Assembly (NCBI GenBank): GCA_028753945.1
Contig: JAPNXP010000013.1
Span: 2,170,001 to 2,234,000 of the forward strand
Source of the DNA: Hexactinellida sp. DTS-2022
Taxonomy: Eukaryota; Porifera; Hexactinellida
DNA length: 64,000 bases
Direction of reading: 5' to 3'
Under the pieces are notes generated by a model. The model was not told the origin of the DNA, ran no database searches, and saw nothing but the letters and a program-made list of their open reading frames with translations. The number at the start of each line of letters is the position of its first letter. Within the stretch, counting starts at the first letter, position 1. Positions 2,330 to 64,000 of the stretch are shown here, piece by piece. Made by a program: the position numbers and the translations under genes.

Positions 2330-4022
2330 TTATGTCTATGCCGCTGGACTACTAATGGAGCTGCAAGAGCTGCCCATTAGGATCTCCTTCAGGCCGGGGC
2401 GGGAGAATCAAGTGGCAGATTACTCAAGCCGAAATCCAGGACTGAATTATGACGAAACAGTCAACCAGGAAGAACAATTTGAAGATAGAATATTCAATAC
2501 AAATGATCCAATGAGGTTATATGACGCATAAGCGGAGAGCAGATGGAAGACCCAAATATCAAGAGAGCAGTAACAGAATTCCTAGAGCGCGGACGAGTAT
2601 GGAGCTGCCAGCTGAGGAGAGTTTCTCACCACAAACTTTAATTCGCCGAGCGGAACCTACTCTTCGAAGGCCGCATAGTGACCCCAAAACATCTCCGGCA
2701 GGAAGCGGTGGACGCCAACCATACGCAGCATCACCTGGGCCAAGCCGATACACTAAGAGCATTAAGGAGAAACTTCTTTTTTGGCCACGGATGAGACACG
2801 AAGTCCAGGCATTTTCCCGCGGGTGTATGGTTTGCCAGAAAGCTAAAAGGAAAGTAACCGGTCGCGAACCTATGCAGCCAATGTCGATTGGGAAAGGCCT
2901 ACCTGGCGAAGCGATTGCAATGGATATCGAAACTTTACCATGGTCCTGCAGCCCAGACAATGGTTATAGATACGTGCTACTGATGGTAGACCTGTTTACT
3001 CGGTATGTAGAATTACAACCACTCAAAGATCAGGAAACGGAGACCGTTCTTAGGGCATTCCAGCAAACTTGGGTCTACCGTGGACACGGGATGCCAGCGA
3101 TCATCCTCACAGACCAAGGTGCCAATATCGAAGCAAAAACATTTAGTGAATTTTGCGAGATGGCAGGAGTAAATAAGAAACACACAACACCGTACCATCC
3201 GCAATGCGACGGAATGGCGGAGAGAAACATTGGTCTGGTTAAGCAAGTTATCAGATGCCTCCAAATGGATCGCCACCTCCAGAAAGAATCTTGGCCGGGG
3301 CTCTTAACTGAAGTCAGTTTTCATATAAACGGCATGGAAAACGCCACTAGTATAATATCTCCACATCTGCTCACGTACGGATGAGAGCCAATGTTCCCAC
3401 TCGACTCGTGGTGCGAACTCCTGAGTCCCGGGGAAGTAAACACCCATGGCGAATACCTAGAGGCTCTGACCCAAAAGAGAGGAGAGTTGCAGAACATTGC
3501 GAGAGAAAACATCGTAAGGAACCTCATGAAGTCGAGAAGTCGGTGTAATAACAACAGGACGGCTTCCAATATTCAAGAGGGCGACATGGTGATGTTAAGA
3601 CGCAACGAAACAAAGGATTCCCTATCACCCCGGTTCGACGTTCTCCAAAGGAGAGGAGCCAACGAAAAGTCCGCTTGAGACGTAGAGACAAATGGATACA
3701 CTTAGACCATGTGAAAAGATACGTTGGATCAACCCCCGCGATCTTCCCTGCTAGGCCAGCTGAACCTGGCGTGGAGCCGCTACCGCAACAACATGAGGCC
3801 ACCCGATCTGAAGAAGATATAGGTCCGTCAGATGGAGGGTGTCTATCTCCAGAGAACGAATCGAACGAAGGCCACGAAGAGGGTGAGACGAGTCAGGCCT
3901 GGGAACGAAGATACCCCGAAAGAATTAGAAGACCCCCTAAAAGATTCACAGATTATGTCCCATGGGGAGACGCCTCGAATGGGACCGGAAGTGAGGGGGA
4001 TTCGGACGGAGAAGTTTCTTAA
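2330..4022 (+). pseudogene. Ty3/gypsy-type RNase H end and integrase (broken)
   Basis: This continues the pol gene from 1425: RNase H end (MELQELPIRISFRPGRENQV at about 2355), then integrase. An HHCC-like zinc region is present (HHLG near 2730, CMVCQ near 2828), but the frame changes between its two halves at about 2780. The catalytic core shows AMDIETLP, LTDQGANIEA and GMAERNIG (the D, D, E positions). A TGA after HLLTYG at about 3384 and further frame changes near 3660 break the C-terminal part (DKWIHLDHVKRYVG, then PERIRRPPKRF). The end at about 4022 abuts a P-element-like pseudogene, and no 3' LTR is visible. Family assignment is secure; activity is excluded. Confidence 0.85.
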
Positions 4023-13510: not shown

Positions 13511-13723
13511 ATGCCTGAAAAGTGCTCAGTGGTTGGATGTAAATTTGGTTACCTAAATGGTCCTACATGTCCACGCTTTAGATTTCCTTCTACATTGATA
13601 TATGATCTTCGTTCTAAATTGATTTTATTCTTCAATCGTCCATATTTATATGAGATAATTGCTAATTCGCGGGTTTGTGCTGATCACTTTGAGGCCCAAT
13701 ACATTAAAGAAAACGAAACTTGA
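13511..13723 (+). pseudogene. THAP-domain fragment (P-element-like N-terminus)
   Basis: A 70-residue frame from ATG has a THAP zinc-binding pattern: MPEKCSVVGCKFG (C-x4-C), FPS, then VCADHF (C-x2-H-F). THAP domains bind DNA and form the N-terminus of P-element/THAP9-type transposases. The tryptophan usually found in the middle is not at its expected place (a leucine appears there), and the frame stops soon after the domain. A P-type C-terminal piece occurs at 15550-15720, but the two cannot be joined with confidence because the end of the CACAGTG element lies between them. Probably a remnant. Confidence 0.7.
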
Positions 13724-14288
13724 ACCCGATTAGTTCCCTTTTCGCGAAATCTTATTCCAACGATCCACCCACTCAGGTCCTAAAAGCCAGACAGTAGTTC
13801 CCATCCAACCACGTAGGCCACCAAAAGTGCGTGTTTTCCAATTAGATGAACTTTGTTCCTTATATGGAAAAATGCCCATAAATTGATTTTGATGATTTCA
13901 TCAGGTTCCAGAAGAAGAGCCCGGAATATCAAGACTTTACTTCACGCTCAACAGAGGACTTCATTACTGCTTACCATATAGTAATCGATGCTGAAATCGC
14001 ACCTATCAAGCAATGTATTTCTATCGATCGACAAATCCTTTCGTGTCACACTTAGTTTTGAAGGTTCTCCAGTTCCTCTTCCTGAATACATCGATAGAGC
14101 TACAGGATCTAAGCTTACTCATTTGTATCTACTTAAAAACCTCATAATTATTTCAGGAACGTACTTCAGATTTCGACATACAGCTGTTTAAGGAGTTACT
14201 AAAACTTGTTACATTATACCTCGTGGGAGACTTAATCACACTATCAAGTATCAGCGGCTTGATAGAGACAAAAAGGAGCATGATTGAC

Positions 14289-14525
14289 CACAGTGGGCAT
14301 TTTCAGGGGTTTAAGTGGAAATAGGAAAACTATGCTAGATAGACTCTAATGAAGTATTATTGACATATAGGTTATCGGTAGCTGCAAACCGAATGGCAAC
14401 ATCAAAAATGATATATGTAGTCTCCTAACAGTAGTTTTGGACGATCAATGGTAAATTCATGATTTATTATATTTTTGGTTTTGTAACAATCATATATTAA
14501 TCACCCATGATTATTGATAATACAT
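14289..14525. repeat. Left terminal inverted repeat of the RAG1/Transib-type element
   Basis: Starts with the heptamer-like CACAGTG. A block GGAAATAGG lies 21 nt inside it and is matched 20 nt inside the right heptamer. No ACAAAAACC-like nonamer at a 12- or 23-nt spacing is convincing. Confidence 0.75.
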
Positions 14526-15545
14526 CTTAAACTTGGGTAAAATAATTTTAATGTTATTCTTATCCCAGATATTCTATATCTCATTGAATTTATAGAAGGG
14601 TAGATGGATGCTGAGTGTAACTATCGCAGGTGCAATTACTCTTAGGAAACCCTAGATAGTTTTATGTAGCATAGTTGTATACTATGGAACATTGCTAGGG
14701 CCTAAATTTATTCCGGATCTCATAAAATTATTTTACTGAAATTCAAAAGCATGGATGAATTTTAACTTGGTATACTGATTGAGAGATTTGACTTTAAAAT
14801 ATAATAAACTGCTTTGTTATTCATTATCACTATCAGTTAATGGAAGAAAAAAACTAATTAATTGGATAAATAGTGGAGAAATTCAATTTACATTATATGA
14901 ATTTTCTGAGGGGACAATGGTAAATTGAAAAAAATCATTCCGAGGCGGATTTGGGCGGTGCAAAACTAATATAAATATTTTGCTAATATGTCTATGTAAC
15001 ATTTAAAAGCATTAGAATATGTGACCACGACCGAGCACCTAATGTTTTTGAACCAAAATGCCAAATAAATTCCGTCCGAAATCCATAAATCCTTCCATAA
15101 GATATTGTAAACTTAGCTTCAATTCCACAATGAAATTGTATTTATAGCAATGACATCAAGAAGTTACAGTCTTGAGTCTTGATATAAATTACATAATGAT
15201 AGTATGAATCATCATATGGGTAGAAATTGTATGAGTTTGATTACTATCTTAATATCACAACAGAATTATTGATAGAAAATATATTTAGATCAGTCATTCC
15301 AATTCATATTATTCGTTACCCCGATAGTATATGACTTCGAAAATTAGTATTTCTAGATTTGAAACAATGGTGAATCTGAAAAAATATAAAAATTTCGTAA
15401 TCCAAGGGTGTTGACAAATAACTCTATTTTCCCTGGTTTGCCCACTGTTTACAGATCCATGTATGTCAATTTGTGCTAAATAAATTTCTAAATTCTCAGA
15501 TTTGTACCCCGATTGTTGTTCAGTACTCACTAAAACTATACGGAA
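14526..15545. other. Interior of the CACAGTG element, no gene recognised
   Basis: AT-rich; no coding sequence with recognisable motifs on either strand. Confidence 0.4.
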
Positions 15546-15549
15546 TTGA

Positions 15550-15720
15550 ATGGAAATTGAAGACCCGGATTTTAACTTTTGCCTTTTGATATGCCTTTTT
15601 GATCGTGGCTGCTTAAAATGGCCGTCCAATTACGTGCTAAATGTGGTGTTTACACCTTGGAAAGTGTTTACAATGATGTTTTCAATCGGATTCAAGCAAA
15701 TCCCTCTCCTAAAACTCGTT
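15550..15720 (+). pseudogene. P-element-like transposase C-terminal fragment
   Basis: The block FDRGCLKWPSNYVLNVVF followed by PWKVF corresponds to the DRGGLKxPS segment in the C-terminal part of P-type transposases, as also seen near 5510 and 34790 in this window. It is about 55 codons long and ends at a stop after VSEKC. A frame on the opposite strand (15309-15629) has no recognisable content. Confidence 0.6.
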
Positions 15721-16216
15721 AGTGAAAAGTGCTAAGACTTCGTTGATGAGTGTATAGATTGCTTAGACAGAAGGAAAATCAATTTATTACAGTACTTTAA
15801 ATTTTAACAACAGTAACCAATTGTTACTTAACAACAAGAAGGCGAAGAACCATATCGTTCCTACTACCTGCCCCAAATAAAATCATAACAAATTCCTCTA
15901 AACATTTGCTTAGTTTTCATAATTATACTATCTAGCTAGTTTGCATGTAATAATAATACTTGAGCTTGAATTTATGTTGGGATCAACTATGAACGATGTA
16001 TACTACTTTGATATGTGTAGTTGATATAATGATTCTAATATTAATCAGGTAATTGGTTACAGTTAGAAAAATAAACCCGCCTTTATCTTATTCCTGCTCC
16101 AAAGCAGTGAAATGGCCTTTATATAGTAGTCTGGAAATTTTTATTTATTTATATATTTTATTATAATAATAAAATGCTCACTACTACCTTATATTTCAAT
16201 ATGAGAGGGTAGAAAC

Positions 16217-16400
16217 CAGGCTTTCATCCAGGCTAATTTTCCCGAGCGCCTAGATTAAATTTGAGCTCACTCACACGCGCCTAAAATACTCAATTTTTAT
16301 TACGTCTATGGGAGCATCTCACGATTTTCGCGCGCCTAGATAATTTCTTTTTGAAATTACGCGCCTGGAGGCGCGTTGCATGCGCCTGGATTAAACCCTG
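16217..16400. mobile_element. hAT MITE, 184 bp, perfect 8-bp target duplication
   Basis: Ends CAGGCTTTCATCCAGGC and GGATTAAACCCTG. The direct repeat GTAGAAAC occurs at 16209-16216 and 16401-16408. Internal GGCGCG-type motifs are shared with the second copy at 27644-27827, which has the same length and its own perfect duplication. Confidence 0.9.
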
Positions 16401-17288
16401 GTAGAAACTAATTGATAGGTAGAGAAATGTTTTTGTAATGCCTTTTATTCAGGTATTCTTGCTAATTTAACTAAAATACTGACCTCCCGCTTTTTCTCCC
16501 TCTTTTAGTGTATCTACCTCCCGCTTTTCGATCAAACTCCTCCACAGGTCCCACTTTTGGGATATTTTAGGTTGGAAGTACTGTATTAATTAATACAGCA
16601 TTCAAAGCCTCTGGAAGTGCTGAAATTTAAAGTCCTCAATATTAAATTGTTCATATCTCTGAAGATATTTGGCGCAAAGATTCAAAACCAAATTCTTTCT
16701 ATGGATATGTTACAAGCTAAGTGGTGAGACACAAAAAGTTGGAATTATGAAAATTTTTCAAGGGAAAATACATTTAGGTGTAAGGGATACCGTTAATGCT
16801 ACAAGTTAATAGAAGCCAGTTCGAATTCACAAGTAGAATCAATTTATTTATCCCAAGTTGAAACAATATAATTAGATGTTAAGAGAAAATGAAAACAAAA
16901 TAGAATGTTATAAATTTTTGGCAGAAAACGTTGTAAATTTTTGGCTTAAATTACTGTAAATAAAAAATTCTTTAGAAATCTGTAATTGTGAGACATGAAT
17001 CCCTATACAATAGAAAGCAATAAACCATGGCCTACTTAATATACGGCCGTGTATGTCACCGAGAAGTCCATTTTATAAATTTCATTCTAAGCTAAACTAT
17101 GCCTCCTATTGTTATCATTTGCATTGTATAAGGGGTAATCAACCATCGCGAGTCCAATGGAACCACTTTTGAGAATCTGAGATTTGAGGTTAAACTGTTT
17201 AGGCGCCTTCACATGAAATGGCGTCTAAACAGCTTAACCACAAATCTCAGAGTCTTCAAAAATATCCAACACCTTGGAGGATTCTTTA

Positions 17289-17457
17289 GATGTTTCAACA
17301 GATAACGAAGACGAACATTCTGAAAAATGTCACGTATGTCTGTTGCCTAGATCAGAAAATTATGCACTCTTGCATGATGAAATCGTGCATGGAGGATTTT
17401 GTCAAACATGTGCAAATCGCTTACTGAGCATGAAAGCTGATTGACCTATTTGCAGAG
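17289..17457 (+). pseudogene. RING-type zinc-finger fragment with a stop in place of a cysteine
   Basis: The frame encodes acidic sequence (STDNEDEHSEK), then CHVCLLP, IVHGGFCQTCANRLLS, then a TGA at 17442-17444 followed by PICRG and a GT splice-donor-like site (GAG|GTAAAA at 17458). Spacing fits a RING domain (C-x2-C ... H ... C-x2-C ... C-P-x-C), and the HGGFCQTCA stretch is reminiscent of the MDM2-type RING of E3 ubiquitin ligases. The TGA stands where the conserved cysteine of the CPIC pair should be. The fragment lies wholly inside a P-type element, so it looks like a captured exon of a host gene. The exact parent gene is uncertain. Confidence 0.6.
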
Positions 17458-17827
17458 GTAAAATAAATTGCGTGCTTAAAGTTTTTCAGTGATTTTGCAA
17501 TTTCTATTAGTTAACTGCTTTTATGTCATTACCTCTATTATCACTGTCCTTTATTACTACTAGATTTAACAGTATAATTATCATTACCTATGTTATCACT
17601 GTCCTTTATTACTACTAGATTTAACAGTTTATTTATCATTTAGTATACACATCTTGTCGTTGAAGGGCAATCTCTTTCCTAAATAAAATCATTTTGCACT
17701 AATTCAAATGGTAAACGTGGTTGTGTACGAATACATTTGGAGGGGTAGTGTAAATATTCCTACTGTATCCGTTATTTTTTGTAGTTATGAAATACTGGGA
17801 AGACAAATTTCAAGATCCGATTTACCT

Positions 17828-18100
17828 TAGGACAAATTCCGAACTCGGAATTTCTTTAGGACAAACTCATAATTTAGAATTAGGACAAATTCCGAACTCG
17901 GACTTTCTTTAGGACAAACTCATAATTTAGAATTAGGACAAATTCCGAACTCGGACTTTCTTTAGGACAAACTCATAATTTAGAATTAGGACAAATTCCA
18001 ACCTCGGAATTTGTTTAGGACAAACTCATAATTTAGAATTAGGACAAATTCCGATATAATTGATTTAGGACAAATTCCATAGTTATTTAGGACAAATTCC
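17828..18100. repeat. 53-bp tandem array (AGGACAAA repeats)
   Basis: About four copies of a 53-bp unit built from AGGACAAATTCCGAACTCGG and AGGACAAACTCATAATTTAG, followed by shorter partial units. It lies inside the P-type element. Confidence 0.9.
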
Positions 18101-18262
18101 AGCTACCCGTTCCATTGGATTCGCGATGGTTGATTACCCCATATACAATGCAAATAATAACAATAGGAGGCATAGTTTAGCTTAGAATGAAATTTATAAA
18201 CTGGCCTTCTATTTTTTTGGCCTTCTCGGTGACATACACGACCGTATATTAAATAGGCCATG

Positions 18263-18955
18263 AATAAACCAAAAATAATATGTCTCTATCTACTATACTT
18301 TTTATTTTTTGTGAGTATAAAAATTTGGCTAATACAAATCTCCCATAGGGGACTTTCCTTAAGTGGTGGTTGTAAATATATAATATTTTGGCAATGTGGC
18401 TATGTGTGCTATTAGTTGTCAGAATTAATATTTAAAGATTATAAGCGTACGCTGTTGGTAGTCTTGAATTATGACTCCAATTTTTTTTAATTTATTCCCT
18501 TCAAAAAGTCACAATTTTTTATTTAGGTTGAATCAAAATTCTAATCCAGTCACCTTTTGCCCATAACGATGGTCTATGTGATATAATAGGACACAACAAA
18601 ACTAAGGGTATAATTAATTTTCACACTCATTTTGAAATATTTTTCGAAGTTCAATTTTTAAATGGATATCCACAATACCCATGGATATGACGAAAACTCT
18701 ATATCCTACTAATTAATTTTATTGCTATTTACTAACCCAATATTTACCTTCACAGTAAATTGTTTGATTATTTATTCGCTGCATTACTCTCATCAATATC
18801 AATGTAATCAATATATTGTCAAATAACTTTGATAGTAATATTATGCATAATTATGTGATTGACGTGAACTAATGATACATCAAACTGATGTAAGCCAAAC
18901 TGGATTAATCGAATTATGCAATTTCGGAAATTTATTTAGTCAAGATTAAATCACC
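18263..18955. other. Interior of the CACAGTG element, no gene recognised
   Basis: AT-rich sequence without recognisable coding content or repeats, between the P-type element and a MITE. Confidence 0.4.
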
Positions 18956-19200
18956 AGGGGCCTTATTCACTAACAATCTCAACTTTTTTCGTGACTAAGA
19001 ATATGACGTCATGCTTAAGTTAAATGGTGGCATATAATTTTGAATAAATTCTGAGGATTCGAACAAAATTTATCCTCCAAGGTGTTTTAGGTATTTCGAA
19101 CCTTTAGACTGGTAATTCAAGTATTATTTCGATAACCTCTCACAATTTCAATTATACAAAGTTCTGAAAAAGTTAAGAATTGTTAGTGAAAAATGCCCCA
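18956..19200. mobile_element. Harbinger-type MITE (GGGGCCTTATTCACTAAC ends)
   Basis: Ends AGGGGCCTTATTCACTAAC and GTTAGTGAAAAATGCCCC form inverted repeats with AAGTTGAGATT-like inner extensions. They match the ends of the Harbinger element at 30758-39262. It was probably mobilised by that type of transposase. The 3-bp target duplication could not be resolved. Confidence 0.75.
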
Positions 19201-19880
19201 GACCTCGATTATGGCAATGAGGTAGCAATGGGTGTTTCCTTTTTTGCTAACACCTGGCACAGATTCACAGTGGATTGACACGGGAAATAGGCTTGATTTT
19301 CAAGTTGTTCAAATCAATTCAAGAATAAGTTAATCTTGATATGCACTATCGAAACATAGAAAGCATGTCAATTGGCAATTTATTCGTGTTATAACCACAC
19401 TCCCTTGGCTATAACTTAGTAACGTTGAAATGTTAATTATTTTGTCCATATTTGTGGTTAAAATCACTTAGCTAATGTTTCTTCTAAATCTCTTTTTGTA
19501 TTAGGCGCATAGATTCCTAATTTTCAGTAATAGAATGAGATGTGTAGTAAATGTTGAATAACAGTAGTTAGCTTATCTACTTACTAAAATATTCGTTGGC
19601 GTAACATTTTGACATTCATGAGCTTACTACCATTTCGGACATCATATCCCCTCATTATAAAATGTTGAAACTTGCTGTGGCCAGTCGTGGCCACATAATT
19701 TTAAACTTTTATATTATACATTTATATAAAGACTATATAAAAAAATAAATTCCAGCCCCGCGAAAAGGCGCGACGGTGAGCATATATTCTGTTAAATAAT
19801 AGGCCTTAGATTTCGACATATTCATTAAATGGAATAATATATTTGTTATAGACTCCCATTATTGAATATACATCCATTTT
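19201..19880. other. Upstream of RAG1-like gene, no feature seen
   Basis: AT-rich interior of the CACAGTG element that would contain the transposase promoter. Nothing specific could be identified. Confidence 0.35.
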
Positions 19881-19894
19881 AATTGATTATTAGA

Positions 19895-22009
19895 ATGAAT
19901 AATAAGCAAGCATTTGAATTCTTAAATACTCACTCATCGATAAGATCTGCTACTGAAGAATTTATAAAACAATACGAAGTTCCGGATGAAGAGAACACAT
20001 CAATCCGTCGAAAACTTTCCTATCTAAAACCAGATCGTGTTCTCTACAGGAAGAATAATGACCTCGAAACTTGGGAGGACTTATTATTTCATACATGTAC
20101 TTCATTACACTATCCGAAAAAGCGAATTTCTGATCAGGAAATTATTTTCCAAACGGAGATTAGTTGTGATATACGAAAACCACTGTCCGAACTCACAACC
20201 AAAGGTTTACGACACCGGCTTAATCCTATCCTCCAGCTGATTAACACATTTGCAGAAAATGAGAATGTAGAATCTAAAGTGATTGCTACTTATGTTTTAC
20301 AACTAATCCAACCAGATTCATGACAGAAAGACATCAGACATTTGTAAATCCTGGATTGGCGAAGGCACTTTCGGAAAGATACCCAGTTTTATGTCAACTT
20401 CCAAGTCTGCTTTTCTTTTAGACCTACTGGAAATCGGGAAAAGGCGATACAATGCACTTCGAGATCTCTGTAAATCAGAAAATATAATTCTTTCCTCATA
20501 TGATAAGGTGAGTAGTTACCGCAATAACATTATTCTCTCTGATGATATAGAATTTGTTCGAAAAAATGACCATATAATTGGCGTTTCCATCTCTTATCAC
20601 AAAATTTCACACCAAACTGTCGAACGTATTCTTGAGGCTCATGTTTCCGCATCAGTACAATTTCCGATCACTGTGAGGGTAATTGATGGGCTTGATGGAT
20701 CAGGTTCACATCAGATTTACAGTCAATTTCATGAAAATATTGACTTGAGTACGAAGAATTATATACTCTTTGCCTTTTCGCGTCACAAGAATTTCTGATT
20801 CCAATGGTGAATGTGTATTTTCCAATGAAAATCCTAATGCTACTTTCGGTATTAGGCCAGTGGCATTGATTGCACTAAAGGAAAACGCGGAAAATGTGCA
20901 ATTTATGATGGAACAACTAATTAATCATCAAGTCACTCTCATTCAGAAGGGTTTCGAGTTTCCAAGTGGAAATGTTAACGTCTCCATAATTCGAAGTATG
21001 TTGGACGGTAAAATGTCGGGGATATTAAGTGGTGCTGGTGGTGCAAGCTGTCAATTGTGTACAGCTACCTCTAAGGAACTAAGAGATTTAGACCTCGTTA
21101 AGTGCGGATTCCCGATAAACAGAACAATCTCAAGTGCTAAAGAAATTTTCAATTCTGTAAATAGAGAAGAATTCTTATCCCTTCCATCTCAACAAAGATT
21201 CGGACTGACTCATGAACCAATATCTGATATTGATATTCTATCGGCTTCGCCTTTACATAGTTATACTTGTGTCTTTCGTTGGTTCATGTTAGTCATTTAT
21301 CATCTACAGTCTGGAACCTATAAATGGTCTCCCACTTCCAAGAAGATAGAAAGTACCATGAAATTTACCCGCTCGTTTTTATGAGAAAACAGGTTTCCGT
21401 ATCGATCAGCCAAGTAGCGATGGGGGAACGACATCAACTGGTAACATTGCGAGACAATGTTTTCTTGACCAACATGATTTTATTTACTGGGTTAAAACTT
21501 TAATTCCTTCTGATATCGGAGACAAAATTTCAAGTGTCCATGCTAGTCTCTCAGCGATTTTACGTGTATACAATTCCAGTCAGGCGATTAACACCGATTA
21601 CCTCGATAAATTGTGCAAAGATACTTACGAATTAATCCTTACTGAATTTCAATGGGCAAGTATAACTCCATCCTTACACAAGTTATTAGCGCATAGCACA
21701 GAACTAATTAAGGAGTGTAATGAGGGGCATGGGTTGAAGGAATTCTCAGAAGAAGGGTTGAAAGTTGTAACAAGTTATTACGTAGGTATCGCGAACACCT
21801 AGCACGAAAAAATTCCTTCTCTTAATTCAAGGGATGTTTTTGTCCGTTTACTAACCCAGAGTGACCCAATATTACAAACCTATCGCAAGGTATTAATTTG
21901 CAAAGATTGCGGAGAATATGGGCATACCAATCGGGTTAGATGCAAGAGCCGTACTCAACCAGTCTCATCACAAGATTGTTTGATGAATTCATTACTTTCT
22001 CTTACATAG
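19895..22009 (+). pseudogene. RAG1/Transib-like transposase (frameshifted)
   Basis: A DDE recombinase of the RAG1/Transib superfamily, which cuts at paired CAC-starting ends through hairpin intermediates. ATG at 19895. Order: N-terminal helical part to about 20320, then after frame changes near 20325 and 20775 the first acidic block VIDGLDGSGSHQIYSQ (D codon 20685). Next come MLDGKMSGILSGAGG and CQLCTATSKE (D codon 21004, zinc pair), then GNIARQCF and SLHKLLAHSTELIKE after a change near 21385. Last are FSEEGLK (E at 21749-21754) and RRYREHLARK after a change near 21785. The C-terminus has CKDCGEYGHTNRVRC (21899-21943), a C-x2-C-x3-G-H-x5-C motif like the one in ProtoRAG RAG1-like tails. The block order parallels vertebrate RAG1. 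At least five frame disruptions make it inactive. No RAG2-like kelch gene is nearby. Confidence 0.8.
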
Positions 22010-22039
22010 ATAGTATCGTAATTGAAATGTATATCATAT

Positions 22040-22267
22040 TCAAGTAGTATAACCAATAATCATGGGTGAACAATAAATGTTGTTAACAAACCAAAAATGT
22101 TATTTTTGACTGAATTTTCATTAATTGTCTAGAACCACGTTTAGGAGGCTACATACATCATTTTCAATTCCCAGCTATCAATAACCTATATGTCAATAAT
22201 ACTTCATGAATGGCTATCTGCTACTAAAATGCCTATTTCCCCTAAATTGTCATTCTCGCCCACTGTG
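22040..22267. repeat. Right terminal inverted repeat of the RAG1/Transib-type element
   Basis: Reverse complement of this segment aligns with 14289-14525 and ends in CACTGTG at 22261-22267. It begins about 30 bp after the transposase stop codon. Confidence 0.75.
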
Positions 22268-22858
22268 AGATTAAATGTGAAAAATATAGAAATTTGAAGA
22301 GCATGCAATGCAATATATTTTATGTTACAAAAATGTAAGAGCCGAATCCAAATTAGTTCCCACGTGAATTCATAATCCCATAAATCAGTATAAGTATGTC
22401 TCATTTCATGTTGTCTTGCCATCTGAAATTGTGGCGAATCGGATGAAAACTGAAAGAGTTATTCCAAATTCTTTGCTTTATGATGTCAATATCCCGCTAT
22501 TTCGTTCAGAAACCCAATAGATCGTTATCAGCGTGTAAGATAATATTACGCACACACACACACACACACACATCAGTGGCGTCGAACTTTTCCATTTTTC
22601 GGAAAATCATGACGGGGCGAACTACGAGATTTTTTAAATATCACCTAGTATAAAACTTGTCTCATAACTGTTGTTTATTTATTGTGTAACTTTTTCTAAA
22701 GGTTGGGTTTATCTTGATGAGAATTTCCCGATAAATCGCTTTCTTTAATCTTTCTGACACAACAAATACATTGCATTATTGCTATAAACATGGCGGCTTT
22801 AACGGTTCGAATTAAGATCGGACAAATCAAATTAGTTTAGTTCTCAAATAACTAAATA
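22268..22858. other. Intergenic, with a short CA microsatellite
   Basis: No gene recognised. A (CA)n run occupies about 22552-22572. Confidence 0.5.
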
Positions 22859-23351: not shown

Positions 23352-23800
23352 TAGGTTCATCCGAATCAATTAGGTTCGTACTGAACTAGGATCAGAAAAA
23401 CTTTTCCCGAGGATGAATTTCAACTGTCACTAATTTATGTTAACTAATTACCTTTCGAACAGAGATGATATGGATTGATTTAGAATTTTTAGTTCAGCCG
23501 AAACCAAAAGTTTTTTGGGTTCCACTCGAATCCAATCGAATTGATGCCGGGGCGGAACAGTGCCCGCCCCGGCATGGTCGACGCCTATGACACACATAAC
23601 AATTGTCCTTTTGATACAATGCATCAATATTATTGATGCATTGTATTAGTTTTCTAGAGACAATCAATGATTAAGATTAGGTAATGTTATTTTGTTGATA
23701 CTATCCAGGTTCTACTATACATATCAAATGCATTTTATTGTACAATGCAATTGACTATATTTCTTATATTTCAGATTATTTTTTTAGTCAATATCTTAAA
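23352..23800 (+). other. Creatine kinase upstream region with possible 5'-UTR splice acceptor
   Basis: A pyrimidine-rich tract ending TATTTCAG at 23774 lies 26 bp before the creatine kinase ATG and could be the 3' splice site of a 5'-UTR intron. In-frame upstream ATG at 23738 would add 21 residues, but the sequence there is intron-like and would bury the MGCGSS motif. No TATA box could be assigned. Confidence 0.45.
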
Positions 23801-26092
23801 ATGGGGTGTGGTTCTTCTACCCAATCATCAACAGTCCAACCAGTCACCAACCCTGTTCGAATGCAAGATGCGACATCGATTACCAGAGTGGAAATAATGA
23901 ATTATCCGCATTTAAGTACTATGCATAATAACTACATGGCTAAATGTCTAAGTAGAGAAATATACAGCAAGTTGTACTCTCTATCTACCAAGTCCGGTTT
24001 CACTATTGATCGTGCTATACAGACTGGTGTTGATAATCCAGGGCATCCGTTCATTATGACTGTAGGATGTGTAGCAGGAGATGAGGAATCTTACCAACTC
24101 TTTTCTGACTTATATGATCCGATCATTGAAAATAGGCACAATGGATACAAAAATGATTCTCAACATACAACTGATTTAGATTATACTAAGCTAGTTGGAG
24201 GAGATCTAGATGCTGATTACGTGATTTCTAGTCGTGTCCGTACTGGGCGCAGTATCCGTGGTTACTCTCTCCCGCCTCATTGCACCAGAGCAGAGAGGAG
24301 GAGCGTGGAGAATATTGTGAAAGAAGTTCTGTCTGGTTTCTCAGAGGATTTCAAAGGCAAATATTATCCGCTGAAAGATATGACAGACGAAGAACAGATG
24401 CAGTTGATTAATGATCATTTCCTCTTTGACAAGCCTGTCTCTCCTCTGCTACTATCTTCTCGCATGGCTAGAGACTGGCCCGATGCACGCGGCATTTGGC
24501 ATAATGAGAAGAAGAATTTGTTAGTATGGGTAAATGAGGAAGACCACACTCGTGTCATATCGATGCAACAAGGAGGAAACATGAAAGAAGTGTTTACTCG
24601 CTTTTGTGATGGACTAAATAAGTTTGAGACAGAACTTAAATCTCGTAATCATGAATTGATGTGGAGTGAACACCTGGGTTATATTCTCACTTGTCCTTCT
24701 AACTTAGGCACTGGACTGAGAGCTGGTGTTCACATAAAGTTAATCAATTTGTGTAAATCTCCCTTGTTCACTGATATTCTTCAAGCGCTTCGTCTTCAGA
24801 AGAGAGGGACAGGCGGTGTAGACACAGATTCATTAGATGGGGTACTTGATATATCAAATCTTGATAGACTTGGGTTTTCTGAGCTTCAGTTAGTACAAAA
24901 GGTGATTGATGGAATTCAGTTATTGGTACAAATGGAAAAGAGACTTGAGAAGAATTCCTCTATCATTGACATTCTTCCAGTAAACATGAAATATTACGGT
25001 CCTCTTACCAGTTATCCGAATATTTTACAGCACAACAATCTCATGGCAATACATCTCTCTCCTTCCATCTACTTCAGGCTCAAAGAGAAGACAACTTCAA
25101 AAGGATTTACTATCGATCGTGCTATCCAGACTGGTGTTGATAATCCAGGCCATCCGTTCATTATGACGGTAGGGTGTGTAGCAGGAGATGAAGAGTCTTA
25201 TCAATTATTTTGTGATTTATACGACCCTATTATTGAAAGTAGGCATAACGGATATACGAAGGATTATATCCATAAAACAGATATCGACCCGACGCATTTA
25301 AAAGGAGGAGAGCTAGATGCTGATTACGTGATTTCTAGTCGTGTCCGTACTGGGCGCAGTATCCGTGGTTACTCTCTCCCGCCTCATTGCACCAGAGCAG
25401 AGAGGAGGAGCGTGGAGAATATTGTGAAAGAAGTTCTGTCTGGTTTCTCAGAGGATTTCAAAGGCAAATATTATCCGCTGAAAGATATGACAGACGAAGA
25501 ACAGATGCAGTTGATTAATGATCATTTCCTCTTTGACAAGCCTGTCTCTCCTCTGCTACTATCTTCTCGCATGGCTAGAGACTGGCCCGATGCACGCGGC
25601 ATTTGGCATAATGAGAAGAAGAATTTGTTAGTATGGGTAAATGAGGAAGACCACACTCGTGTCATATCGATGCAACAAGGAGGAAACATGAAAGAAGTGT
25701 TTACTCGCTTTTGTGATGGACTAAATAAGTTTGAGACAGAACTTAAATCTCGTAATCATGAATTGATGTGGAGTGAACACCTGGGTTATATTCTCACTTG
25801 TCCTTCTAACTTAGGCACTGGACTGAGAGCTGGTGTTCACATCAAATTAACAAAGCTCTGTCAGCAAAAGGACTTTGCAAATATTCTCACATCTCTCCGT
25901 TTACAGAAGAGAGGGACAGGTGGCGTAGATACCGAGGCAACAGATGGAGTATTCGATATTTCTAATCTAGATCGCCTCGGATTTTCAGAAGTAGAACTAA
26001 CTCAGAAGGTGATTGATGGCGTAAATATCCTAGTAAAGATGGAAAAATCTCTTGAGAATGGTGATTCAATATCTCCTCTAATCCCTGACTAA
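23801..26092 (+). CDS. Two-domain creatine kinase with acylation-type N-terminus
   Basis: 763 residues, phosphocreatine plus ADP to creatine plus ATP. Two complete phosphagen kinase domains in tandem (about 33-385 and 402-763). Each has the arginines of SSRVRTGR (145/147; 514/516), the NEEDHTR block, the reactive cysteine of [11 protein letters not shown] (298; 667) and the RGTGGVDT flexible loop. The [10 protein letters not shown] form and the [15 protein letters not shown] block point to creatine rather than arginine kinase. The start is set at MGCGSS: Gly2 then Cys3 suits N-myristoylation plus palmitoylation, as in membrane-attached flagellar creatine kinases. The whole frame lacks introns. 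Bases 24206-24735 and 25313-25842 are identical, while flanking parts differ at many silent sites. Neither domain lacks a key residue, so both may be active. Confidence 0.92.
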
Positions 26093-39570: not shown

Positions 39571-39821
39571 GAATTCTTTTATTCTAATAATTTTTTTAGT
39601 TTTCTCTTTCTCGAGCCACAAAGTGCCGAGTTAAACACACAATGTTGCGAGGGGTGCCACGCGTCGCGAGCTATGCTTGTTCCGAGTTCATTATATACTG
39701 GAGGGCTTCCAAATCTATTTTTGAGATTAATAGGAGTAATTATTGGCGCCCGGCAAGTTTAGGTTTTCATAACTGGCTCGTCGCTGCAGAAGGATCGCCT
39801 CTCAAGGATGGCCTCTCAAGG

Positions 39822-40862
39822 ATGGCCTCTCACTTAGTCCTATTGGACTACCGAAAGGCTTTTGACCATGTTGACCACACAGTGCTGATCAACAAATGTA
39901 AGATGTATGAATTACCCGGATTCGACATCAGATGGATAGGGGCTTTCCTTTCCGACAGGTCCCAGAGGGTGGGACTAGTTCAGGTTCTCTCTGACTGGGT
40001 CCATCTGAAGGGATCTATACCACAGGGAACATGGCTTGGGCCGCTCCTCTTCGTTATCTTGATTAATGTTCTGACTCCTCCATGTGCTACTCACAAGTAC
40101 ATGGACGACACAACGTTAACGGTCAGGGTCGGGAAGGGGAGTGTTAGCTCAATGCAATCCATCATGGACCTTACCACCTCATGGTCCTCAATAAACAACA
40201 TGGTTCCCAACATTAGAAAAACGAAAGACATGGTCATCTGTTTCCATAAACAACCAACAGCTATCCCACCTGTAACCATCCAGGGGATGGAGATAGAGCG
40301 AGTGCCATCCTTTAAATTGTTAGGTGTCGTTATTAATGACAAGCTAACCTGGGCCGATAATACCAACTATATATACTCCAAGGCCTCTAAACGCCTCTTC
40401 CACCTAAGGCAGCTTCGCAGGGCTGGACTATACAGCCTAGACCTGCTGATGTTCTACACAGCTGTAATAAGACCGGTTATTGAATTTGCATGCCCCGTTT
40501 GGCATCACTCTCTGACCGCAGCCGATTCAGCTAACCTCGAAAGTATTCAGAGGAGGTCGATAAAGATCATCGAACCGAAATTGACATACGTATTGGCATG
40601 CGCTAAACACAAATTATTTAAGACATCCGCTCGGAGGGAGAAATTATCTAAAAGATTCTTCTCGACAATTTGTTTGAATTCAAGCAGATTGCATTACCTT
40701 CTACCGCAACCTATTAACACCAGGTATTCCCTCTCCGAAATAAGCGTAAACTGCCTCCCCCCAAAGTCAAGACTAACCGATTTATACTTTCTTTCATCCC
40801 GCATGGGTTATTTAACTATCAATAATATACCATTAACCCCGCGGTCTGAGTCTCTCCTTTAG
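39822..40862 (+). pseudogene. LINE (non-LTR) reverse transcriptase, 5'-truncated
   Basis: From about 39828 the frame reads LLDYRKAFDHVDHTVL, SIPQGTWLGPLLFVILINVL and KYMDDTTLTV (the YxDD active site), then FKLLGVVINDKLTW, FYTAVIRPVIEFACPVWH and LESIQRRSIKII. These are typical of jockey/CR1-like non-LTR reverse transcriptases, which copy their RNA at a nick in the target. The frame is open to the stop at 40860-40862, followed by a T-rich 3' region that was hit by a MITE at 41019. The endonuclease and the first reverse transcriptase blocks are absent, as expected for 5' truncation. The open frame upstream (39642-39820) has no similarity to the family and is probably chance. A short triplication GGCCTCTCAAGGAT sits near 39795-39830. 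Confidence 0.85.
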
Positions 40863-51396: not shown

Positions 51397-51984
51397 TTAA
51401 TTCAATCTACATAACTAGTGTCAATTTAATTGAAAAGATTCAATTTAGACTTGCCTGAATATCTATGGATTTACACCAGTATCTATATTTACACATCTAA
51501 CTACTTTCAAAGTAAGGATTCCATTATGTAAATTCCTGAATTATTGTTGACAAGTCATTGTGATTTTATAATTTACTTCTCCAATTGATATCAATTTCAG
51601 TTATCTCATAAACTTCCGGGCAATAATGATTACTTGATCATTTTTTTTATTTTCTAGGAAATTCTAGAACAGAATATTCTTCAAGGAACCTCCCAACACC
51701 AATTTATTTCAGTTTTTGAATGGTGAAAAAGAAGATAAAATTGTAAGTCTAACCGAGTATAAATTAGTAAATTTTAGAATAGTAAAACACAACTTATATC
51801 CATTGAATCTATATATCTGTAGAAGAGAGACATAATTGAGACTATAATGGAATGGACACCAGAACTTTATCCTAGTTTTACAGATAATGAGAGTGCTAGA
51901 CATACACATAAAATACTGTATTTCGTGGTAAGTATTCTACACAATATTAATTGTATAATTATATTATAGTTAATGATTCCTATA

Positions 51985-52620
51985 TACCATTATTTGGCGA
52001 TGGAGTATCTCAATACGATGCTATGGGAAACGTTCGACGAAAAAGATAAAACCGTTATTACAGATGCCTATCCGGATGACCCAAAAAGTATTGTTGTACA
52101 TGAGAATTGGCAGCGTAGTAAATGTGTTCTCTTGGGGATAACAATAGATTCAGTTAGCAAGCAACCATCGGATCTCGTTGTACAGCCACTGAGCAAATAC
52201 GAACCAGAGCTGACAGAGAAAATCCAAGATGGTAATTGCCTCTTCAGATGTCTCTCCAAAATAATTACTGGGAGTGAAAACAGCCACCTACAGCTTCGTT
52301 CCATTATATGCCGGTTTATAGCCAGTGAAGGTACAACAATACTTGGATGGTATTTTAAATCAAAGCAAACGACACCGTGTCATTACCTCACACACGAAAA
52401 CGCTATCTATCGTGAATCCATATGGGGAAGTGATGTTGAAATTATGGCTGCCTCTGCTATTCTGAATGCCGATATCTACGTTGCAACAACGATTATAGAA
52501 TGTCAGGGTCTGTAATTCGACATGTGCGTTGGAGCTTGCTCAGATCTAATAACAGCCCAACTGCCAATCTTTACATCAAAAATTTCGTCCTACATTATGA
52601 ACCTGTTGTATCAATGCTGA
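51985..52620 (+). pseudogene. OTU-type cysteine protease domain (Ginger-like element remnant)
   Basis: One frame (from ATG 51973) leads to IQDGNCLFRCLSKIITGSE, the OTU signature with the nucleophilic cysteine at codon 52237. It continues through ENAIYRESIWGSDVEIMAAS and ADIYVATTI. It then shifts frame near 52505 to SLLRSNNSPTANLYIKNFVL and HYEPV, whose histidine (52593) completes the catalytic pair. OTU proteases remove ubiquitin. Here the context (GPY/F segment 600 bp upstream, transposons all around) argues for a transposon-encoded copy rather than a host deubiquitinase. The frame change and an hAT MITE at 52667 break it. The sequence after the MITE (53131-53320) may be the decayed C-terminus. 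Confidence 0.75.
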
Positions 52621-62448: not shown

Positions 62449-64000
62449 CAGTCAAAGCCCGCAAAACGGGGCACCTCGGGACCGGAGGTTGGGCGCCCCG
62501 TTTTGGGGGAGCGCCCCGTTTTGAGGGAGGTCGTCTCGTATGTGTGTTCTTAAGAAATACATGAACAGTATACATTACAGGATACAATTCTAACTTAACA
62601 AGCATTCCTACACTGTTTATGGACACACATAGTAGTCGGTGATTCGAGTCTGTTTTTGCTCAGCTAACCGTCTGCCGGCCACGATCTCCTGGTAGTGGTT
62701 CAGGTCGACCGGGGAGGACAGGACCTGCTCATCCCCGCGGGCCATGGCGTACAGCTGGATTATTTTCACAGCCTCCATGACGGCTTTGGAAGTGGGAATC
62801 GAGATCTGAGCCTCATCATCCGATTTGTCCTCCTCCGCATCCAGACCAGCCTTGACCATGAGCCCCTGCCCTGCGATCCTCTGCGCCTCAGCATCGATGG
62901 CGTCAGAAGCTTCGATAAACAAGTCCTCTGCCTTCGCGATGGGTGGGAATATGTTGTTGTCTTCCATCTCGGCAGCGCTCAGAGCCAGTTCCTCAGTATC
63001 ACCGGCCGCGAGTTCAGGGAGGGGCAGATCGGCCGTGACAGCCGCCGTTCCGGTGTCATCCGTACCTTTGAAGCCGCACTTTGCGAAGCACTTGGAGATA
63101 GTTCTAGGGTTCACTTTGTACCAGGCACGGAAGAGCCACACGATGGCCAAGGCGATGGTGACGTCCTTCAGGGGATTGCACATGATGTCGTTTTTCACCT
63201 TGTGCATGATGTGGGAGTGGAGGCTCTGCCTGTAGTACAACTTGAAGGCCTGGATGATCCCAGCATCCATGGGTTGGAGCTGTGATGTTGTGTTGGCTGG
63301 GAAAAAGGCGATCTGTGTGGCCTTCAAACGCTTGATCTGAGCATCGTCGATCCTGTGCACCGACGCGTTGTCCATGAGCAGCAGCACCTTTCTTCCCTGA
63401 GAGTGTTTGTGAGAATCGAACTCTTTGATCCACTCTTTGAACAGTGGGATGGTCATCCAGGCCTTTCCTTGACTGCGGTACGTCACCGGGAGTTTGCTCT
63501 TGTCGGCTCCCTTCAGGGCTCGCGGGTTCTCACTCTTCCAGATCATCAGAGGTTTCTCCTTCTCTCCCATCCAGGAAGCCGTTAACAGGAGGGTGAGGCG
63601 CTTTTTGTACTGCTTTACGCCGTGGGCATCGTCTCCAGGCATAGTCAGAGAGCGGTTGGAAGACTGTAAGAAGAACAGTCCCGTTTCATCGCAGTTGAAT
63701 ACATCGGACTCTTTGTAGTCCTTGATAATCTCCGGGAGGCGCACTGTCTTCCAGTCGGCCACGAGGATGGGGTCGACTGCTGCTGCTTCTCCGCACAGAG
63801 CCTTTCCGACGATGTCGTGGCGCTGCTTCACCCGGCTGAGCCACCCCTCAGAAGCCGAGAAGTCAGCGATGCCCTTTTTCTCGGCTTCCTCCAGCGCTAG
63901 AGTGCGCAACACGGGACCGGTCACCACCAGTCCGCGGTCTCTAGCCATCCTCAGGAACTCCACCACAACCTTCTTGATGTCCTCGTACTGTAGCTTCGGG
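62449..64000 (-). mobile_element. Tigger/pogo transposon, partial (runs off right edge)
   Basis: The end is CAGTCAAAGCCCGCAAAACG at 62449, next to TA at 62447-62448, the usual Tc1/mariner-pogo target. An inner palindrome GGGCGCCCCGTTTTG is repeated. The other end lies beyond the window. Confidence 0.85.
62617..64000 (-). CDS. Tigger-type transposase (intact as far as seen, 5' end outside window)
   Basis: The frame is open from the window edge to the stop at 62617, about 460 codons. It opens within a CENP-B-type helix-turn-helix (GPVLRTLALEEAEKKG, then ASEGWLSRVKQRHDI). It continues into the DDE/D nuclease domain: FNCDETGLFF (first D), VLLLMDNASVH (second D) and TSQLQPMDAGII (third D, 34 residues between the last two). 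This is the DDD arrangement of pogo/Tigger elements that cut and paste at TA. An acidic tail and TRITDYYVCP end the protein. No stop or frameshift is present and the gene is strikingly GC-rich against an AT-rich background, which suggests recent arrival. An element end lies 168 bp downstream of the stop. Confidence 0.92.
   Translation of the reverse strand, partial: PKLQYEDIKKVVVEFLRMARDRGLVVTGPVLRTLALEEAEKKGIADFSASEGWLSRVKQRHDIVGKALCGEAAAVDPILVADWKTVRLPEIIKDYKESDVFNCDETGLFFLQSSNRSLTMPGDDAHGVKQYKKRLTLLLTASWMGEKEKPLMIWKSENPRALKGADKSKLPVTYRSQGKAWMTIPLFKEWIKEFDSHKHSQGRKVLLLMDNASVHRIDDAQIKRLKATQIAFFPANTTSQLQPMDAGIIQAFKLYYRQSLHSHIMHKVKNDIMCNPLKDVTIALAIVWLFRAWYKVNPRTISKCFAKCGFKGTDDTGTAAVTADLPLPELAAGDTEELALSAAEMEDNNIFPPIAKAEDLFIEASDAIDAEAQRIAGQGLMVKAGLDAEEDKSDDEAQISIPTSKAVMEAVKIIQLYAMARGDEQVLSSPVDLNHYQEIVAGRRLAEQKQTRITDYYVCP

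Follow-up and report, generated by a model that had tools for sequence, protein, structure and literature searches.

What kind of transposon has left V(D)J-type heptamers in the genome of a glass sponge? The DNA in question, hereafter the window, is a 64,000-nucleotide stretch of Hexactinellida sp. DTS-2022 (GenBank assembly GCA_028753945.1, contig JAPNXP010000013.1, positions 2,170,001 to 2,234,000). The sequence CACAGTG stands at window position 14289 and its reverse complement ends at 22267; both exact heptamers had been pointed out in an original prediction made from the letters alone, and both are there. We consider it very probable that the window holds, at 19266–22267, a degraded copy of a Transib-superfamily transposon of the cut-and-paste type, one that carries a single gene and no RAG2 and has multiplied in the genome of its host, and we propose that its short and long ends pair and are cut by a RAG-type DDE reaction. 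Termini, duplications, asymmetric spacing, short-plus-long pairing, protein homology and near-identical copies are all read at the level of sequence; that the enzyme works is what we infer from them. The family is large and recently active, with bipartite asymmetric ends, a RAG1-like nonamer-binding domain (NBD) and no RAG2 in the element.

Element limits in the window

Do the two heptamers bound a single element? The original prediction held that they did, as the ends of one 8-kb transposon with inverted repeats of about 235 bp. In line with this, the heptamer lies exactly at the start of both ends, and the inverted similarity (14289–14531 against 22037–22267, about 73–82% over aligned blocks) begins at the heptamer. 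However, the 5-bp flanks of this pair differ (TTGAC and AGATT), and a scan of the window for pairs of CACAGTG-like ends flanked by the same 5 bp returned a sole solution, 19266–22267, which has AGATT next to either end. The two units, each of which is found separately elsewhere in the genome, are as follows.

19266..22267, + strand: element B, coding, Transib-type, 3002 bp, CACAGTGG at both ends (end-plus-duplication scan, deletion derivatives L010–L016, paralogous uninterrupted sites)
19261..19265, no strand: left target-site duplication of element B, AGATT, 5 bp (end-plus-duplication scan, flank comparison)
22268..22272, no strand: right target-site duplication of element B, AGATT, 5 bp (end-plus-duplication scan, flank comparison)
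14289..15449, − strand: element A, separate, non-autonomous, about 1.16 kb (copies elsewhere, flank comparison)
14289..14295 and 14316..14325: long end of element A, heptamer and box TGGAAATAGG, respectively (box placed by comparison with L003)
15449: short end of element A, final heptamer base altered

The limits of element B are corroborated by its relatives and by its target. In a locus-versus-window comparison, L010–L016 all match the window from 19263 or 19266 to about 19991 and again from about 22042 to 22267; the gap between the two blocks is 672 bp long in L015 and 14–16 bp in the other six. When the flanks of element B are joined (19265 to 22273), 35 of the 45 places listed match continuously over the junction at 70–80% identity, as expected if element B inserted into one copy of an older repeat. 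The corresponding joint for the 8-kb unit (14288 to 22273) is spanned by more than 4 bases at none of the 40 places listed, its two sides being matched separately. The search for other copies and empty sites that the original prediction had recommended thus fixed termini and a 5-bp duplication, those of 19266–22267 rather than of 14289–22267.

Element A has its own copies. Homology to it extends from 14286–14289 to 15448–15460 in L003, L005, L006 and L007 (94–96% identity over 1163–1179 bp), and L003, L004 and L006 are element A-type copies with both ends and a 5-bp duplication; the copy in the window has no matching duplication (TTGAC and TACAG). When the left end (14289) was searched against the genome, 38 of 40 copies scored began at query base 1; the right end (22267) scored another 40 copies. 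The left flank of element A (14231–14288) is itself repetitive: 38 of 40 places listed match its last 50–60 bases at 92–98%, and these matches stop no more than a few bases from its edge.

We conclude that 14289 and 22267 are homologous ends, each from a different transposon, and that they form a long inverted repeat because two long-spacer ends of related subfamilies face each other. A single unit from 14289 to 22267, which we reject on the separate copies, the duplication scan, the uninterrupted sites and the joined-flank search, is exceedingly improbable. What stands of the predicted repeats is similarity starting at the heptamer; that they enclose one element does not.

Bipartite ends and their pairing

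How large is the family, and what do its ends have in common? The 112-Mb host genome contains at least 151 transposase matches to one 204-residue query and 70 to a second. Twenty genomic regions were taken for comparison, chosen partly for open frames. In the window and in 13 of these 20 loci an element has exact CACAGTGG on either side and a perfect duplication of 5 bp; 13 of the 20 carry a single frame of 711–757 codons. The loci without a perfect end pair are L035, L038, L042, L044, L045, L046 and L048; a laxer look at L035 gives spacers of 11 and 20 (by eye, to GGAAATAGG and GGAAGTAGC) and four of five duplication bases. Proteins of different subfamilies are 43–69% identical. Three loci, L030, L031 (which carries a further insertion) and L032, are 99.1–99.8% identical over their main stretches while their duplications differ, and they have therefore moved recently.

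Past the heptamer, each end of element B contains the same inner box at a different distance.

19266..19291, + strand: short (5') end of element B, heptamer 19266–19272, 9-bp spacer, box GGGAAATAGG at 19282–19291 (sequence, motif search)
22232..22267, − strand: long (3') end of element B, heptamer 22261–22267, 19-bp spacer, box GGGAAATAGG at 22232–22241 (sequence, motif search)

This arrangement is general in the family. We ran a motif search, blind to end labels, for a 10-bp box in 24 ends from 12 subfamilies; L031, L032 and L033 were omitted from it and from the shuffles as duplicates of L030 and L029, and the short and long labels of element A were assigned by hand. The box lies 9–10 bp past the heptamer at one end and 19–20 bp past it at the other in nine of the 12 subfamilies, and in all eight coding subfamilies among those nine the short end is upstream of the gene. 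The remaining cases are L039 and L040, which have no clear box, and L043, with spacers of 6 and 20. With motif widths of 8–12 the asymmetry is recovered in eight or nine of 12 subfamilies, against at most two of 12 in 60 shuffles; a simple offset scan was noisier than the motif search.

The same geometry is seen across the genome. The pattern CACAGTG-N(0-30)-GGAAATAG has 537 exact matches (258 forward, 279 reverse), compared with 0 for the reversed heptamer-box pattern. Spacers and pairs were tabulated for 100 of the 537, all on contigs C1 and C2. The spacers to GGAAATAG are bimodal, with 45 at 10–11 bp (four at 10, 41 at 11), 54 at 19–22 bp (two at 19, 25 at 20, 26 at 21, one at 22) and a single one at 15 bp. 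Among the same 100, all 20 neighbouring convergent pairs no more than 5 kb apart combine a short with a long end, whereas only about half would be expected to do so by chance (p 8e-7, a value to be read with the caution that copies from one ancestor are not independent).

We propose that the transposase has two binding sites at each end, the CACAGTG heptamer and the inner box GGGAAATAGG, the latter set 9–10 bp inward at one end and 19–20 bp at the other. A short end would pair with a long one, cleavage would follow a RAG-type DDE mechanism, and insertion would then generate the 5-bp duplication. The box would be read by the RAG1-NBD-like domain described below, and the spacer offset of one turn may impose a 12/23-like pairing rule without RAG2. 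Such a rule, operating without RAG2 in a transposon from an animal outside Bilateria and with a RAG1-type NBD reading a spacer difference of one helical turn, is a tentative proposal that falls somewhat short of probable.

Alternatively, the offset could have been inherited from one founder and have no role, the heptamer and adjoining bases sufficing for transposition. All copies are indeed related, L039, L040 and L043 are exceptions, and invertebrate RAGL transposons are expected, according to the accessible portion of PMC7204232, to be relatively insensitive to asymmetry. Yet both spacings are kept across these divergent subfamilies although the box letters vary, the two narrow classes hold 99 of the 100 listed spacers, and ProtoRAG favours its own asymmetric 27/31 pair in the part of PMC8289069 available. 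We regard a founder effect as rather unlikely.

The transposase between Transib and RAG1

What enzyme would read these ends? Element B carries the remains of one gene.

19895..22009, + strand: broken transposase gene (three-frame translation)
20162..20320, + strand: segment like the NBD of RAG1 (SCDIRKPLSELTTKGLRHRL...) (window translation; family profile A3 against PDB)
21899..21943, + strand: C-terminal zinc-knuckle motif CKDCGEYGHTNRVRC, CCGHC, resembling the published CTT1 tail (window translation)

The gene has an in-frame stop at 20321–20323, and its frame shifts at a point between 20323 and 20391 and again near 20770–20798, near 21382 and near 21800. A decayed RAG1/Transib gene with both catalytic aspartates, CQLC, LHKLLAHSTELI and FSEEG had been predicted here, and translation together with alignments to HzTransib and RAG1 confirms it. 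Alignment puts the catalytic residues at about 20694 (D), 21004 (D) and 21752 (E); those of RAG1 are D600, D708 and E962 (PMC6941560, in the part available). A profile search, also recommended at the outset, gave a divided answer: the five window transposase pieces did not match Pfam RAG1, whereas seven of seven intact relatives did (E up to 0.0021), five of them above the cut-off. For comparison, nine of ten HzTransib-type proteins match this profile, one above the cut-off. The original prediction is thus supported in part, in its assignment to the RAG1/Transib superfamily and not in its delimitation of a single element.

The N-terminal domain was compared with known structures by means of profile A3, built from the family with the window's own segment left out. 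Against PDB its top ranks are 16 RAG1 sequences (best 1.6e-5; next unrelated 0.19). A control N-terminal profile of similar size, A4, made from 20 insect or HzTransib-type pieces (38 regular-expression matches among 120 proteins, 26 of them kept), did not find RAG1 in PDB. From these profiles we claim only so far that resemblance to the RAG1 NBD appears closer in the sponge domain than in the insect-type profile, because an NBD equivalent is found in both Transib subgroups (PMC9435367).

On the tree, L034 and L037 are sister subfamilies (93/90) with a common changed box, TTCGAATAGG and GTCGATTAGG. In the N-terminal segments compared (L034:4998-5369, L037:5043-5474), the NBD-like part of both has the pair ES; at the first of these two places most of the others have K. 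This is a hint, from one clade only, that box and NBD may have changed together.

Does the family belong to Transib or to the RAG1 clade? It has a RAG1/Transib DDE transposase, CAC-type ends with a 5-bp duplication, and a single gene with no RAG2L in the element, as the Transib superfamily does. Coding elements are mostly near 3.0–3.3 kb, some reaching 3.7, 4.2 and 6.1 kb. The transposase frame of L029 leaves just 605 bp on its upstream side and 269 bp on the downstream one, and a full RAG2-like gene therefore does not fit. The 3.0–3.3-kb elements leave no room for RAG2L and so lack the paired RAG1L and RAG2L of RAGL transposons; the absence of RAG2L rests on these elements, the extra DNA of the 3.7-, 4.2- and 6.1-kb ones not having been searched for genes. 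A genome-wide RAG2 search of the host gave no match, though control genomes were equally silent.

A RAGL transposon that had lost RAG2L, and hence a member of the RAG1 clade, might nonetheless look like this. Its NBD would resemble that of RAG1, as here, and the CCGHC tail is present in some proteins: 20 of 96 of sponge type, many of them fragments, with the pattern absent or altered in L034, L035, L037, L038 and L039. The bipartite asymmetric ends resemble those of AanRAGL (PMC9435367), and positions 408–455 of the sponge profile (about 48), where HzTransib has 13 residues, align throughout to amphioxus RAG1L. RAG1 itself, however, fails to align in this stretch, and HzTransib is the best PDB match of the sponge transposase both by sequence and by fold. 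The tree likewise places the sponge and HzTransib-type proteins together, opposite the RAG proteins across a 100/100 branch, on a midpoint root and with two partly read RAG rows (RAG1 without its middle), 15 of 20 HzTransib-type rows cut at the default position and no Subgroup I references. A RAG1-clade origin is, in our judgement, improbable. The sponge family is Transib-like, with features of the published Transib Subgroup I.

That subgroup has asymmetric ends, a CTT1 tail and a RAG2-binding-like region and lies nearer RAG1L, while Subgroup II comprises HzTransib and most known Transibs (Tao et al. 2022, PMC9435367). The sponge elements have the asymmetric ends, in nine of 12 subfamilies and in the genome-wide pattern, and the tail and RAG2-binding-like region in part. 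Like Subgroup I, they have a single transposase gene and an NBD equivalent. The CCGHC motif, which several sponge subfamilies lack, may correspond to the tail of that subgroup, and the longer stretch in place of the 13 HzTransib residues may correspond to its alpha11–alpha12 region, between the zinc-binding parts; this comparison is by description rather than sequence. Bacteria, fungi, plants, ctenophores, hydra and others are named as Subgroup I hosts, with no sponge in the main text (PMC9435367). Insect and HzTransib-type elements share the DDE core, 5-bp duplications and full-length relatives of about 700 residues; they differ in having CCGHC in none of 120 proteins, as well as in the N-terminal profile and the short stretch noted above.

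Other systems share the geometry of the ends. Drosophila and Anopheles have RAG2-less Transibs in which one end has a short spacer and the other a long one (PMC8355894, in the part available); their 12/23 spacers contrast with 9–10/19–20 in the sponge (to the 10-bp box), and the inner box differs, again by description. The ends of AanRAGL of Aureococcus are described as 13 bp, 4/13 bp and 10 bp (PMC9435367). By arithmetic this puts its box 10 and 19 bp past the seventh base, the sponge register, which is a lead, since box limits depend on definition; AanRAGL differs in its RAG2L and its box letters. Vertebrate RAG1 shares the consensus heptamer CACAGTG (available part of PMC8289069), bipartite asymmetric signals, the NBD similarity and the DDE core, but it is domesticated, works with RAG2, and uses the nonamer ACAAAAACC and 12/23 spacers.

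The neighbourhood and the origin of V(D)J signals

The rest of the window contains further repeats and genes. Between elements A and B lies a separate repeat (17026–18262) with inverted arms at 17026–17163 and 18109–18262 (93–95% complementary), enclosing a RING-like frame at 17274–17444 (E 0.0095, below the Pfam cut-off); L002 has related arms. A THAP-domain frame of 70 residues (13511–13723; 4.3e-05, slightly above the cut-off) lies 0.6 kb before element A, and an intact two-domain ATP:guanido phosphotransferase, arginine-kinase-like, with a 784-residue frame (23738–26092), lies 1.5 kb past element B. Mobile-element pieces encode an integrase core (2521–3384; 3.6e-14), a reverse transcriptase (39642–40862; 1.3e-12) and a DDE_1 transposase with a Tc5-type DNA-binding domain (62617–63966; 1.9e-39). 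A 180-residue frame at 51973–52515 is OTU-like cysteine protease (6.6e-08).

Have such elements been seen in glass sponges before? The literature searched yielded no account of Transib or RAG1-like transposons from this group, and the available parts of two glass-sponge genome papers do not mention Transib or RAG1. PMC4411706 has no mention of sponge, Amphimedon, Porifera, "asymmetr" or nonamer. Relatives with an organism name all come from the glass sponge Oopsacas minuta (12 of 58 and 15 of 82 matches in two protein searches), and in UniRef some Oopsacas proteins already carry the label V(D)J recombination-activating.

Finally, the family bears on how V(D)J signals came to be bipartite and asymmetric, and on the origin of their reader. 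The argument that end asymmetry needs no RAG2, based so far on a few insect Transibs (PMC8355894, in the part available), is strengthened by a RAG2-less family with exact heptamers and two strict classes of spacing. The question becomes testable in this one genome, which offers heptamer ends by the hundred, many transposases paired with them and intact copies that are nearly identical. If the proposed pairing rule is true, V(D)J signals would have a geometry that predates both RAG2 and vertebrates, and the sponge subfamilies would provide natural variants whose NBD changed along with the letters of the box.

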